IMG/VR virus record: IMGVR_UViG_3300017917_001434
Span: 25,593 to 89,592 of that record
Origin: a virus
Strand: one strand, 5' to 3'
Length of the DNA: 64,000 nucleotides
The translations under genes were made by a program, and so were the position numbers. Positions 206 to 43,416 of the stretch are shown here, one piece after another; position 1 is the stretch's first letter, and every line of letters begins with the position of its first letter. Under the pieces are notes generated by a model. The model did no database searches. It saw nothing but the letters and a program-made list of their open reading frames with translations, and was not told the origin of the DNA.

Positions 206-234
206 TTGACCGATAAACTGTTATGTAGTACAAT
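206..234 (+). promoter_or_regulatory. sigma70-type promoter upstream of the tmRNA region
   Basis: TTGACC (206-211), a 17-base spacer and TACAAT (229-234) form a near-consensus host promoter. Transcription from about 241 would cover the microgenes and both pieces of the tmRNA. A hairpin ATATTCAC/GTGAATAT (244-251 with 259-266) lies just after the predicted start. Confidence 0.7.
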
Positions 235-251
235 TAGCAATAAATATTCAC

Positions 252-326
252 ATGAACGGTGAATATAGATTAAACAATTTAGGTGAATTGGAGGTGTATC
301 GTGAAGGTTATTGGCAACCAGCATAA
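252..326 (+). CDS. microgene, 24 residues, preceded by a late promoter box
   Basis: A short frame from ATG 252 to TAA 326. It has no Shine-Dalgarno sequence, but AATAAATA (239-246) ends 5 bases before the ATG, the same arrangement seen at six other genes of this window, which would make a leaderless late mRNA. The product is acidic at the start (NGEYRLNNLGELEV) and ends YWQPA. No family is recognised. Support is the promoter arrangement only; the ATG also lies in the loop of a hairpin (244-266). Confidence 0.35.
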   Translation: MNGEYRLNNLGELEVYREGYWQPA

Positions 327-378
327 CATATTTTGGTACCATAAACTTGGCTGTACCTGCCCAATTTGTAGTGTATGA
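301..378 (+). CDS. microgene, 25 residues, with Cys cluster
   Basis: GTG start at 301 preceded by GGAGG (290-294), a strong Shine-Dalgarno at good spacing. The product ends GCTCPICSV, a closely spaced three-cysteine cluster that could bind a metal. Its stop overlaps the ATG of the next microgene (ATGA at 375-378), which suggests translational coupling. Function unknown. Confidence 0.4.
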   Translation: MKVIGNQHNIFWYHKLGCTCPICSV

Positions 379-458
379 TTAAGTTTATTAAACGATTATT
401 TCAAGGTAAGGACTATGTAGGTTATAGACCTTATTGGTTTAAACAGCGTAAACACTAA
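375..458 (+). CDS. microgene, 27 residues, basic
   Basis: ATG at 375 overlaps the stop of the preceding microgene by four bases. The product is strongly basic (starts MIKFIKRLF, ends WFKQRKH) and could be a small RNA- or membrane-binding peptide. Its stop (456-458) sits directly against the 5' side of the tmRNA acceptor piece, so processing of the tmRNA precursor would cut next to this frame. No family recognised. Confidence 0.4.
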   Translation: MIKFIKRLFQGKDYVGYRPYWFKQRKH

Positions 459-503
459 GGTAAGGACTTCAAGACGGCGGTTCGATTCCGCCCAGGTCCA
501 CCA
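459..503 (+). ncRNA. ssrA: permuted tmRNA, acceptor piece (T arm and CCA 3' end)
   Basis: This is the 3' half of the tRNA-like domain of a tmRNA, placed upstream of the 5' half, as in permuted (two-piece) tmRNA genes. A perfect T stem GGCGG/CCGCC (476-480 with 488-492) closes the loop TTCGATT (481-487). Then come CAGGTCC (493-499), discriminator A and an encoded CCA (501-503). CAGGTCC pairs with GGGCCTG at 621-627, giving a 7-bp acceptor stem with G3-U70, the alanine identity element. The 5' boundary is approximate; AGCG and CACT at 445-456 can pair with AGTGCGCT at 657-664 as part of helix P2, so the piece may begin earlier. The lone T arm cannot be an ordinary tRNA because no D or anticodon arm precedes it. 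Confidence 0.85.
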
Positions 504-514
504 AAAGGTATCTT

Positions 515-619
515 ATGGAATATATTTGGATAACAGTATTTGTTTCAATTCATATTTGGGCATTATTAAAATATGAATCAGATGAAAAAATAGACCAAAT
601 GTGGCAAGATAATTTTTGA
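515..619 (+). CDS. small membrane peptide gene inside the tmRNA intervening segment
   Basis: A 34-residue frame fills almost the whole segment between the two tmRNA pieces: ATG at 515, TGA ending at 619, with the coding piece starting at 621. AAAAGG at 503-508 gives a plausible Shine-Dalgarno that overlaps the end of the acceptor piece. The N-terminal half (YIWITVFVSIHIWALL) is a hydrophobic membrane-type helix, followed by an acidic tail. Precursor processing of the tmRNA should release or destroy this message. It could be a chance frame, but its fit to the segment is tight. Confidence 0.4.
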   Translation: MEYIWITVFVSIHIWALLKYESDEKIDQMWQDNF

Positions 620-620
620 T

Positions 621-835
621 GGGCCTGACCAGGTTTCGATTGGGGTAGATAGAATAAGTGCGCTCGAGAGTCGACTGACGTAATCAGCGAAAAACTAGTA
701 AATGCAAAAGCAAATACTTCTAACGTAGTCAAAGTATCTATGGGCCGTGGCTTCCGCTTCGGTACTCGTAATACTGAGGCTTTAGCAGCTTAGTACTGCC
801 GTTCGGGGCAGTTATGCCTTGTTACCCAAAATAAC
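621..835 (+). ncRNA. ssrA: permuted tmRNA, coding piece with tag frame ending ALAA
   Basis: The piece starts with GGGCCTG (621-627), pairing with 493-499, followed by a D-loop-like TTTCGATTGGGG. A compact PK1-like region (660-689, with CGCT/AGCG and CTGA/TCAG pairings) ends 14 bases before GCA at 704, the likely resume codon. From there the frame is open for 29 codons to TAG (791-793). The tag begins AKANTSNVV, is rich in Arg and Gly in the middle (GRGFRFGTR) and ends TEALAA, the hydrophobic signal read by ClpXP and ClpAP in bacteria. A hairpin ACTGCC/GGCAGT (795-812) follows. The exact 3' end is uncertain; a terminator begins at 836. Confidence 0.85.
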
Positions 836-857
836 CAAACCCGCTTCGGCGGGTTTG
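836..857 (+). terminator. terminator after the tmRNA
   Basis: CAAACCCGC, a TTCG tetraloop, GCGGGTTTG. The stem is stable but only a short, interrupted T tract follows, so termination may be partial or the stem may act as a 3' end processing block. Confidence 0.6.
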
Positions 858-2997: not shown

Positions 2998-4621
<1,624 letters not shown>

Positions 4622-4623
<2 letters not shown>

Positions 4624-40251: not shown

Positions 40252-41076
40252 ATGGCAAATGCGTACGAAACATTGGGTGTGCCTAAAGGGGCATCTGAAG
40301 ATGAAATTAAAAAGGCTTACCGCAGACTAGCGGCCAAGCACCATCCTGATCGTGGAGGAGATACCGCTAAGTTTCAGGAAATACAATCAGCTTACGAAAC
40401 CTTAACTGACCCAGTTAAGCGTCAACAGCATGATAATCCAGGATTTAGTCATTTTGATCAAGGACCGGGTGGATTCCAATTCCATTTTGGGTCAGGCATG
40501 GATCCAAACGATATATTTGCACAATTTTTTCAACAGGCTGGATTTGGACATCCACATAGACAACAGCGTAGAAATAAAGATCTAAGAATCAACATAGCTG
40601 TGGATTTAGCCAGTACTTTAGAAGATCAAGTAAAAACTATCAGTGTTCAGACTACCAAACAGGAAAAGTTTAACATTGATGTTAAAATACCGCGTGGTGT
40701 AAACAACGGTACAACTATTAAGTATTCCGGACAAGGAGATAACTTCTTTGAGAGTTTACCTCGTGGGGATTTGTATGTTATTATTAATGTAATGCCAGAT
40801 CGTAGATTTGATGTCAATGGAATACATCTAGTACACAATCTTGAAATAACTGCTATTGAAGCAATGATAGGCATAGAAAAAGAAGTTGAAGGGCTTGATA
40901 ATACAAAGTATCTTGTTAAAATTCCTCGAGGTTGCCAGTATGGTGCCAAATTTGGCCTACAAGGCAAAGGATTATATCAGATGAATACTAATTATCGCGG
41001 CGATCTAATAGTAAATGTTGTTGTAAAAGTTCCAACATTAACTGATGATCAAATAAAAGTACTTAAAACTCTATAA
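40252..41076 (+). CDS. DnaJ-type co-chaperone (J domain plus C-terminal substrate domains)
   Basis: 274 residues. J domain from residue 1 to about 62 with HHPDRGG (HPD at 31-33), then a Gly/Phe-rich segment ([13 protein letters not shown]), then two beta domains of DnaJ_C ([30 protein letters not shown]). It lacks the four-Cys zinc finger, so it resembles CbpA more than DnaJ. It stimulates host DnaK. It follows the lysis terminator and precedes a ClpA gene. Its promoter lies in the terminator loop and leaves almost no leader. Confidence 0.92.
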
Positions 41077-41109: not shown

Positions 41110-43416
41110 GTGTCATTAAAATCTAATCCTGCAATCGAAGAAATTATCAAGGCGGCGGCTATCTTAGCCACAGAGTATCGTCACCGTTACGTGACCTTGG
41201 AACATCTGTTGATTGCACTGATCGAGTATCCAGAGTTTAAAAAACTTTTAGACGACTACGGTGCTGAGACTGAAAATCTTTTAAAAGATTTATACGAGTA
41301 CACTAGCAAACAAGATCACATTGTAGATTTAACCGAGGAAGAAATTGTGCCACAGAGAACACACAGTCTAGAACGTGTGTTTAACCGAGCATTTACTCAG
41401 GTGTTGTTTACAGCACGTGAAATGATTGAGCCAATTGATTTATACATCAGTATTACCAACGAACAGAACAGTCATGCTGCTTACTTCCTAATCAAGTGGG
41501 GTATTAACCGTAAACAGTTAGTACAATTCTACTCTGAGGAGCACGGCGGAAATGCTAGAACTGTTAACAACACTAAAGATCCAAAGGCAAAACTTGACTA
41601 CGTTAAAAAAGTTTTAAATGAATACTGCACTAACTTAAACAAACAAGTTGAAGATGGAAAAATTGATCCTGTAATTGGCCGTGAATATGAACTAGAAGAA
41701 ATTGCTCAGGTTTTAGCACGTCGTCACAAATCAAACGTACTAATGATTGGTGACCCCGGTGTAGGCAAGACTGCCATTGCCGAAGGATTGGCCTATAAGA
41801 TTGTTAACGGCGAAGTACCTACTTACCTAAAAGAATATATAGTGTACAATCTTGAAATTGGTAGCCTGTTAGCAGGCAGTAAGTACCGAGGTGAATTTGA
41901 AGAGAAACTTAAAGAAGTATTGTTTGCTCTAAGCGAAAAAGGCAAAACAATCCTGTTCATTGATGAAGCACATCAAATGCAGGGCGCAGGCAGTGGATCA
42001 AGTAGTAGTGTAGACTTTGCTAACATGATCAAACCAGCACTGGCTAAAGGTGGTATTAAAGTTATTGCTAGTACTACCTACGAAGAATACACACAGTCAT
42101 TTGAAAAAGATCGTGCTTTAATGCGTAGATTCTATAAGTTATCCATTGACGAACCAAGTCCTGTTGTAGCTAAAGATATTCTACGTGGCTTGAAAGAACA
42201 TTTTGAAAAGTTCCACAATGGTGTTATTACTAACGAAGCTATTGATGCCGCTGTAGACCTAAGTGTACGCTATCAAACAGACAAACGTCTACCAGACAAG
42301 GCCATTGACTTAATTGACATGAGCTGTGCTAGATTAAAGATACACAATGATTCCTGGGTAGTTGATCGTGATCAAATTGTTGAGACCTTAAGTAAGGCTA
42401 CTAAGATTCCAATGGAAAATCTTAACAACAAAGAAACTGCTACAACACTTAACAATCTTGACAGTCTAATTAAAGACAGACTCTATGGTCAGGATACCGC
42501 AGTTGATCAAGTATTAGAAAAAATCTATGTGGCCAAAGCTGGATTAAAAGCACACAATAAACCCGTGGGCAACTTCCTATTCTTAGGTCCCACTGGTACA
42601 GGTAAAACTGAACTATGTAAACTGTTAAGCGAAAACCTTAGCATGAAGTTGTTGCGCTTTGATATGAGCGAATATCAAGAGAAACACAGCATGGCTAAAC
42701 TTATTGGTGCTCCTCCGGGCTACGTAGGTTACGAAGATGGTAACCTAGGCGGCGGCTTGTTAATCAGCGAAGTTGAGCGTAATCCACACAGTATTATCTT
42801 GTTAGATGAAATTGAAAAGGCGCACCCAGACATCAGTAACTTACTGTTACAGATCATGGACGAGGGCACTATCACTGGCAGTAATGGTAAGAAAGCAGAT
42901 TGCCGCCACGCTATTCTAATCTTAACCAGCAACTTGGGTGCTGCAGATAACGAGCGCAACAACATTGGTTTTGGTCGAGACTTGCTTAAAGACGGTCAAG
43001 ACGACAGTGCTGTTAAGAAATTCTTTAAACCAGAATTCCGCAATCGTTTAGATGCTGTGATTAAATTCAACAAACTTGATAAACTGTCAATGAAGAAAAT
43101 TGTTGTTAAGTTTGTCAATGAACTAAATGACCTATTGGGCGAAAAGCATATTAAAGTATATGCCACCGAAGCACTAGTTGATCATTTAGTAGAAGTTGGA
43201 TTTGACCCTGCAATGGGCGCACGTCCACTGGCACGTAAGATAAACGAGATGATTAAAGTACCGTTAAGTAAGAAGATTTTGTTTGAAAATATTCGTGAAG
43301 GCAGCACAGTAACAGTAGGCTATACTAACGAAACTGTTGACTTTACCGTCACTGAACCTAGATTAGAATTATTGGAAAACAAAACTGTTGACGAAAACGG
43401 CTACATCATAGCATAA
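41110..43416 (+). CDS. clpA: ClpA-type AAA+ unfoldase
   Basis: 768 residues (E. coli ClpA 758, ClpB 857), GTG start after AAGGAAAG. N domain (ILATEYRHRYVTLEHLLIAL), AAA1 with GDPGVGKTAIAEGL (about 214-227) and LFIDEAHQM, AAA2 with GPTGTGKTELCKLL (about 494-507) and LLDEIEKAH. The long ClpB middle coiled coil is absent. In AAA2 the tripeptide IGF (about 619-621) occupies the ClpP-binding loop position, where ClpA has IGL. So it should dock on host ClpP. A ClpP gene is not in the window. With the tmRNA tag ending in ALAA this could be a phage degradation pathway. Confidence 0.93.
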   Translation: MSLKSNPAIEEIIKAAAILATEYRHRYVTLEHLLIALIEYPEFKKLLDDYGAETENLLKDLYEYTSKQDHIVDLTEEEIVPQRTHSLERVFNRAFTQVLFTAREMIEPIDLYISITNEQNSHAAYFLIKWGINRKQLVQFYSEEHGGNARTVNNTKDPKAKLDYVKKVLNEYCTNLNKQVEDGKIDPVIGREYELEEIAQVLARRHKSNVLMIGDPGVGKTAIAEGLAYKIVNGEVPTYLKEYIVYNLEIGSLLAGSKYRGEFEEKLKEVLFALSEKGKTILFIDEAHQMQGAGSGSSSSVDFANMIKPALAKGGIKVIASTTYEEYTQSFEKDRALMRRFYKLSIDEPSPVVAKDILRGLKEHFEKFHNGVITNEAIDAAVDLSVRYQTDKRLPDKAIDLIDMSCARLKIHNDSWVVDRDQIVETLSKATKIPMENLNNKETATTLNNLDSLIKDRLYGQDTAVDQVLEKIYVAKAGLKAHNKPVGNFLFLGPTGTGKTELCKLLSENLSMKLLRFDMSEYQEKHSMAKLIGAPPGYVGYEDGNLGGGLLISEVERNPHSIILLDEIEKAHPDISNLLLQIMDEGTITGSNGKKADCRHAILILTSNLGAADNERNNIGFGRDLLKDGQDDSAVKKFFKPEFRNRLDAVIKFNKLDKLSMKKIVVKFVNELNDLLGEKHIKVYATEALVDHLVEVGFDPAMGARPLARKINEMIKVPLSKKILFENIREGSTVTVGYTNETVDFTVTEPRLELLENKTVDENGYIIA

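Follow-up and report, generated by a model that had tools for sequence, protein, structure and literature searches.

We consider it very probable that the permuted tmRNA gene of a phage doubles as the carrier of a small protein gene, and this explanation accounts best for the observations as a whole. The gene lies in a stretch of 64,000 nt (the window) of the virus record IMGVR_UViG_3300017917_001434, which measures 89.6 kb in total and contains genes of phage kind (tail fibre, PhoH). In the intervening sequence that separates the two tmRNA pieces (the spacer), we have detected an open reading frame (ORF) of 34 amino acids, and the tag encoded by the tmRNA is unusually long; neither was mentioned in the first-pass annotation of this DNA. 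The features of the unit are listed in Table 1.

Table 1. Features of the permuted tmRNA unit (positions of the window).
Feature	Positions	Strand	Evidence and remarks
Promoter-like site TTGACC-N17-TACAAT	206-234	+	Consensus match, count near chance level; upstream of the unit
Possible 25-aa ORF, GTG start, VKVIGNQHNIFWYHKLGCTCPICSV	301-378	+	Sequence
27-aa ORF MIKFIKRLFQGKDYVGYRPYWFKQRKH	375-458	+	Sequence; homolog before the L157 tmRNA at the equivalent place, E 3e-4
tmRNA acceptor piece: P2 strand, T arm, 3' acceptor strand, CCA	445-503	+	RF04321 alignment, ARAGORN; 5' end approximate
Intervening sequence (spacer) between the tmRNA pieces, 117 nt	504-620	+	ARAGORN boundaries
Spacer helix, 5' arm, including Shine-Dalgarno AAAGG (504-508)	504-515	+	Covariation, fold
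Nested gene, 34-aa single-TM protein MEYIWITVFVSIHIWALLKYESDEKIDQMWQDNF, stop TGA (617-619)	515-619	+	ORF; L501 homolog
Spacer helix, 3' arm, followed by TGAT (617-620) and the 5' acceptor strand	605-616	+	Covariation, fold
tmRNA coding piece: 5' acceptor strand, D-like loop, PK1 region, tag frame	621-835	+	ARAGORN, cmscan; 3' end approximate
Tag frame, 29 aa, AKANTSNVVKVSMGRGFRFGTRNTEALAA, stop TAG	704-793	+	ARAGORN; related long tags in L190 and L063
Terminator-like inverted repeat CAAACCCGC-TTCG-GCGGGTTTG after the gene	836-857	+	Called on the minus strand only

The first-pass annotation had proposed a phage gene for a tmRNA of the permuted two-piece type, and this identification is borne out by a covariance model, by ARAGORN in permuted mode and by the more than 200 viral permuted tmRNAs that were found for comparison. 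With cmscan, the model RF04321 (tmRNA_permuted) matches positions 445-793 (+) with 104.2 bits (cutoff 47, E 3e-19); the match runs end to end over model positions 1-213, the 3' domain preceding the 5' domain. The betaproteobacterial permuted model beta_tmRNA also matches this gene (88.3 bits), which is the sole tmRNA match of the 89.6-kb record. ARAGORN calls a permuted tmRNA at 411-884 with its coding part at 704-793. In the sequence, the T arm and CCA end precede the 5' acceptor strand and coding piece exactly as had been described, the acceptor strands GGGCCTG (621-627) and CAGGTCC (493-499) pair over 7 bp with G3-U70, and the T stem is formed by GGCGG (476-480) and CCGCC (488-492). The resume codon and a tag frame with the hydrophobic C-terminus ALAA, two further elements of that description, are likewise found by ARAGORN. 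The discriminator A500 and the CCA (501-503) are encoded in the gene. When positions 469-646 are folded (z -3.0), an additional helix within the intervening sequence is obtained besides the T arm and the acceptor helix. A hairpin similar to the terminator-like repeat comes after the tag in L060 and L061. The 27-aa ORF upstream overlaps the first 14 bases of the tmRNA 3' piece, and its homolog near the L157 tmRNA ends just ahead of that point.

The opinion that few or no permuted tmRNAs are known in phages does not hold. Of the 133 distinct phage tmRNA structures counted in PMC9004378, 53 are permuted two-piece ones, which are mostly aquatic, and a Stenotrophomonas phage carries one too. The phage-borne permuted tmRNA itself is already published and is not new. 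We have found permuted tmRNAs in this cultured Stenotrophomonas phage (L498, OR797040.1) and in the Xanthomonas phage Rb1 (L499, PQ569993.1); the latter is unannotated in its record.

The cleavage of the window transcript, the joining of its pieces and its charging with alanine are inferred from the family, no RNA data being available. The RNA most likely works, by inference, as a tmRNA together with the SmpB of the host and adds a long phage-specific tag ending in ALAA. It could instead be a decoy or inhibitor of the host tmRNA/SmpB, the nested gene being incidental. Support for this comes from the RNA of phage DS6A, which comprises little beyond a tRNA-like domain, such a molecule inhibiting tmRNA (PMC4131195, PMC11915505), and from the search for an SmpB gene in the 89.6-kb record, where none was found. 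Since the acceptor, the G3-U70 pair, the T arm and the open tag frame ending in ALAA are all intact, and since conservation at the peptide level, such as translated tags should show, is seen in one long-tag family, a decoy is in our judgement highly improbable. Over the extension of the tag family DTFDFSAMSFTGN, pN/pS is 0.27. For the tag family of the window (L190, L063) the value is 0.77, so that selection on the window tag is unproven. Long tags constitute a second variant: tags of at least 20 aa (20-33 aa) represent 58 of the 223 viral permuted tag calls among the matches listed; in this count the second group was selected by pattern, a few calls are likely erroneous and some are cyanophage-like.

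The nested ORF extends from ATG 515, 11 nt past the CCA, to TGA 619. Its AAAGG motif abuts the CCA, and its stop codon, within the TGAT, ends one base before the 5' acceptor strand. The predicted protein contains one strongly hydrophobic segment (best 15-residue mean 2.14), and neither Pfam nor PHROGs assigned a function to it. One homolog, MEWHWFYIFGILIPAIHAWALLSEQEPADPEIEKMWQDNF, was detected in the spacer of the L501 permuted tmRNA. The two proteins align with a score of 93 (shuffled mean -2.5, sd 8.9) and their pN/pS is 0.46, a value from this single pair. The L501 contig is otherwise unlike the window except for the promoter-like stretch (81% identity between positions 203-234 and the DNA immediately preceding the L501 tmRNA), and the L501 tag differs. 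When the pattern MWQDNF-stop was used alone, it matched four sequences besides L501, all of them unrelated. A gapped pattern for an intervening sequence of 90-120 nt gave no match, and neither did a tblastn search of two nested proteins against isolated phages. Among 57 loci related through the neighbouring 351-aa protein, ARAGORN detected no tmRNA beside that gene, and for five of the 57 the record contains a permuted tmRNA at another place. L157 is a close relative of the window, with the upstream gene shared and nearly identical tmRNA ends; its spacer is a hairpin without the ORF and its tag is ANDSEYALAA. The cargo is therefore dispensable.

The shortness of the window ORF and the plain hairpin of L157 are what would be expected of an ordinary permuted phage tmRNA in which the ORF is a chance open frame of an AT-rich spacer. 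The L501 homolog of the window protein already argues against chance, and we have confronted this possibility with a set of viral spacers collected blindly with respect to their content. This set came from scans for the tRNA-like parts only, with the addition of five relatives that a shared protein had led to; after removal of similar spacers, it contained 49 viral spacers of at least 80 nt, window included, among the matches listed. An ATG-initiated ORF spanning the spacer and starting 6-16 nt after the CCA was present in 23 of these 49 spacers among the matches listed, for 1.86 expected from shuffling. The same test on these listed spacers gave 1, 0 and 0 at later offsets and 0 on the reverse strand. 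A second scan, which required CCA-NAAGG-ATG, enlarged the catalogue to at least 105 loci (42 groups and singletons taken together). These additional sequences were chosen for the feature and are thus excluded from the frequency estimate. About 42 types of nested protein, with lengths up to 122 aa, were distinguished among the matches listed. This number is approximate, because some frames continue into the tmRNA and the largest group is joined artificially through tmRNA sequence. In L294 and L302, the 5' acceptor is mis-set by ARAGORN; read directly from the sequence, the spacer frames are 122 aa long in L294 and 83 aa long in L302, lengths that also argue against chance. The 83-aa protein of L302 has a homolog (52% identity) in the spacer of L320. 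Of the other nested proteins tested, that of L283 alone exceeds a Pfam cutoff (PGDYG), and the L294 protein is weakly GNAT-like.

The substitution patterns speak in the same sense. With the terminal helix excluded, pN/pS ranged from 0.05 to 0.66 in 11 nested families; the twelfth pair had a single difference. In six families all six frames were compared: the ORF frame was the only one free of stops throughout all six families, and it had the lowest pN/pS. Together with the ORF frequency and the position and strand controls, these frame controls and pN/pS values leave a chance frame hardly tenable. As far as coding capacity and selection are concerned, the comparison shows that a protein gene nested in a tmRNA spacer is a recurrent phage arrangement; the translation of these putative genes, like its timing, is inferred. 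We have found no published report of a protein gene in a tmRNA spacer in the open-access literature, a provisional result.

Free reading frames related to nine spacer families were found elsewhere in the fetched loci. Seven of these families have a free copy immediately upstream of the tmRNA and on its strand, with a start about 190-330 nt ahead of the CCA end. The nested families are also paired with various tags: the 24-aa TM family occurs with ANDSQFALAA, ANDERFALAA, ANADTFDFS... and others. Since the slot holds dozens of small, mutually unrelated proteins across many other uncultured phages, and free copies are found beside the tmRNA, it behaves like a site whose cargo can be exchanged.

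The two ends of the spacer form a helix. The first 11 bases after the CCA make up one arm, and the other arm stops 4 nt short of the 5' acceptor; changes on both sides (covariation) support this pairing. Among the matches listed, the helix is shared by viral spacers with an ORF (72) and without one (66), and the TGAT joint is also present in 50 of the 66 listed spacers devoid of ORF. Helix and joint exist without an ORF, so neither was made for translation; by inference, the stop codon in the TGAT joint was probably co-opted and did not arise anew. In the listed matches of the spacer-blind set, the Shine-Dalgarno sequence lies within the helix in 18 of 27 ORF-bearing spacers versus 11 of 67 others. 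G-U pairs occur at helix positions 4 and 5 in 12 and 7 of the 27 ORF-bearing spacers, respectively, versus 12 and 4 of the 67 others (matches listed). In 39 of the 105 loci among the matches listed, the frame extends past the spacer, two of these cases being mis-calls of the boundary.

Such a placement is also compatible with a regulatory ORF of the upstream type, whose translation would control the folding and cutting of the precursor, the peptide being secondary. The Shine-Dalgarno sequence indeed sits in a helix extending the acceptor stem, cutting is expected at the position of the stop codon, and the frames that run past the spacer enter the mature 5' piece. This reading has to contend with the purifying selection on the amino-acid sequences, with the presence of many nested families as free genes and with the ORF-less spacers, which indicate that maturation is possible without translation. 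We hold it to be unlikely, without dismissing it.

For a carrier of a small protein gene, we propose the following scheme. A single transcript would be made, in which the tRNA-like domain is continued by the helix of the two spacer ends, as supported by the covariation. By analogy with the family, host tRNA-processing enzymes would cut before position 621 and after CCA503, and the two tmRNA pieces would stay together by base pairing. The segment 504-620 has the make-up of a complete minimal gene, with a putative ribosome-binding site, a start codon, the 34-aa frame and a stop. The messenger for the nested protein would most likely be the precursor or the released segment, an inference made without ribosome-profiling or protein data, and the amount of this protein would thus be tied to the production of tmRNA. 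The helix, partly wobble-paired, may limit translation by covering the ribosome-binding site until a ribosome invades it or the RNA is cut. Because 39 of the 105 frames among the matches listed end beyond the spacer, most of these would need uncut RNA to reach their normal stop; the nested gene of the window would work with either route. A wider proposal is that the spacer is a general processing-coupled expression slot, where ribosome access and precursor cutting would be mutually exclusive and where exchangeable small proteins, often of the membrane, would stand in fixed relation to the tmRNA, beside a long tag. This generalization is tentative, and we hold it as possible rather than probable.

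The betaproteobacterial permuted tmRNAs (RF04321 / RF01850) share with the window the gene order, the G3-U70 acceptor stem, the T arm, the tag frame and the helix of the spacer ends. In the bacterial sample they differ by spacers of at most 43 nt and mostly 10-aa tags (e.g. ANDERFALAA), whereas in the window the spacer measures 117 nt and contains a protein gene, and the tag has 29 aa. In 37 sampled bacterial permuted tmRNAs, all spacers were of 43 nt or less and all tags of 10 aa, except two probable mis-calls; by eye, these spacers resemble short hairpins. A scan of 250 genomes from the order to which a Cupriavidus genome belongs yielded 13 above the cutoff, with match lengths of 246 or less versus 349 for the window. 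A bacterial source of the long spacers was considered and was seen neither in the 37 permuted genes nor in the 13 above-cutoff genomes, Alphaproteobacterial spacers being outside the sample. Among phages, the Methylophilales phage Melnitz has a two-piece tmRNA like the window, and no protein gene in its spacer was found in the accessible part of PMC9004378. Stenotrophomonas phage Bhz51 also has a two-piece tmRNA, but its spacer is a hairpin on the 56-nt scale without such an ORF.

The intervening sequence of permuted tmRNAs is described as missing from the mature tmRNA, and both intron-form tmRNAs with homing endonuclease genes and a tRNA-Ala within the intervening sequence of one permuted tmRNA have been reported (PMC11915505). 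As in our case, the part of the tmRNA gene that is removed contains a further gene. They consist of a self-splicing T-loop intron with an endonuclease gene, or of an RNA gene, whereas the viral set analysed here has a permutation spacer and many unrelated small proteins. For the window itself, an intron-form tmRNA with a homing endonuclease was rejected: the T loop is uninterrupted, no Rfam intron match was found in the window and the ORF has no Pfam match.

Several observations concern the tmRNAs and their surroundings. Some T loops lack the usual TTCGA (GGCAGAA in L059, TGCAACT in L501), so that patterns based on the T loop miss these tmRNAs. Long phage tag families (L106, L107, L121, L137, L177, L189, L314 and others; L061, L119, L272, L341) are kept as peptides, e.g. 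ANADTFDFSAMSFTGNTVRGAANESRFALAA, and some long tags end in AV or LA, not LAA, e.g. AKASTGEVTVSGKNVKFSARTVKAESFAV. Near the L063 tmRNA lies a tRNA with a CTA anticodon (L063:1075-1151, called Pyl by ARAGORN), possibly an amber suppressor. The phage of the window also encodes a ClpA-like ATPase (41110-43416), DnaJ (40252-41076), GroEL (3001-4623) and a ClpP-family protease (G000:C1:21533-22108). It is possible that these proteins and the tmRNA constitute the phage's own tag-and-degrade kit. A ClpP-family gene was found in 21 of 40 tmRNA-bearing viral records; some may be prohead proteases.

The coding slot of the spacer indicates a source of phage microproteins that have escaped annotation, and it is a possible reason for which phages keep the permuted form of the tmRNA. 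The long tags suggest that the marking of proteins by the phage tmRNA may differ from that of the host.
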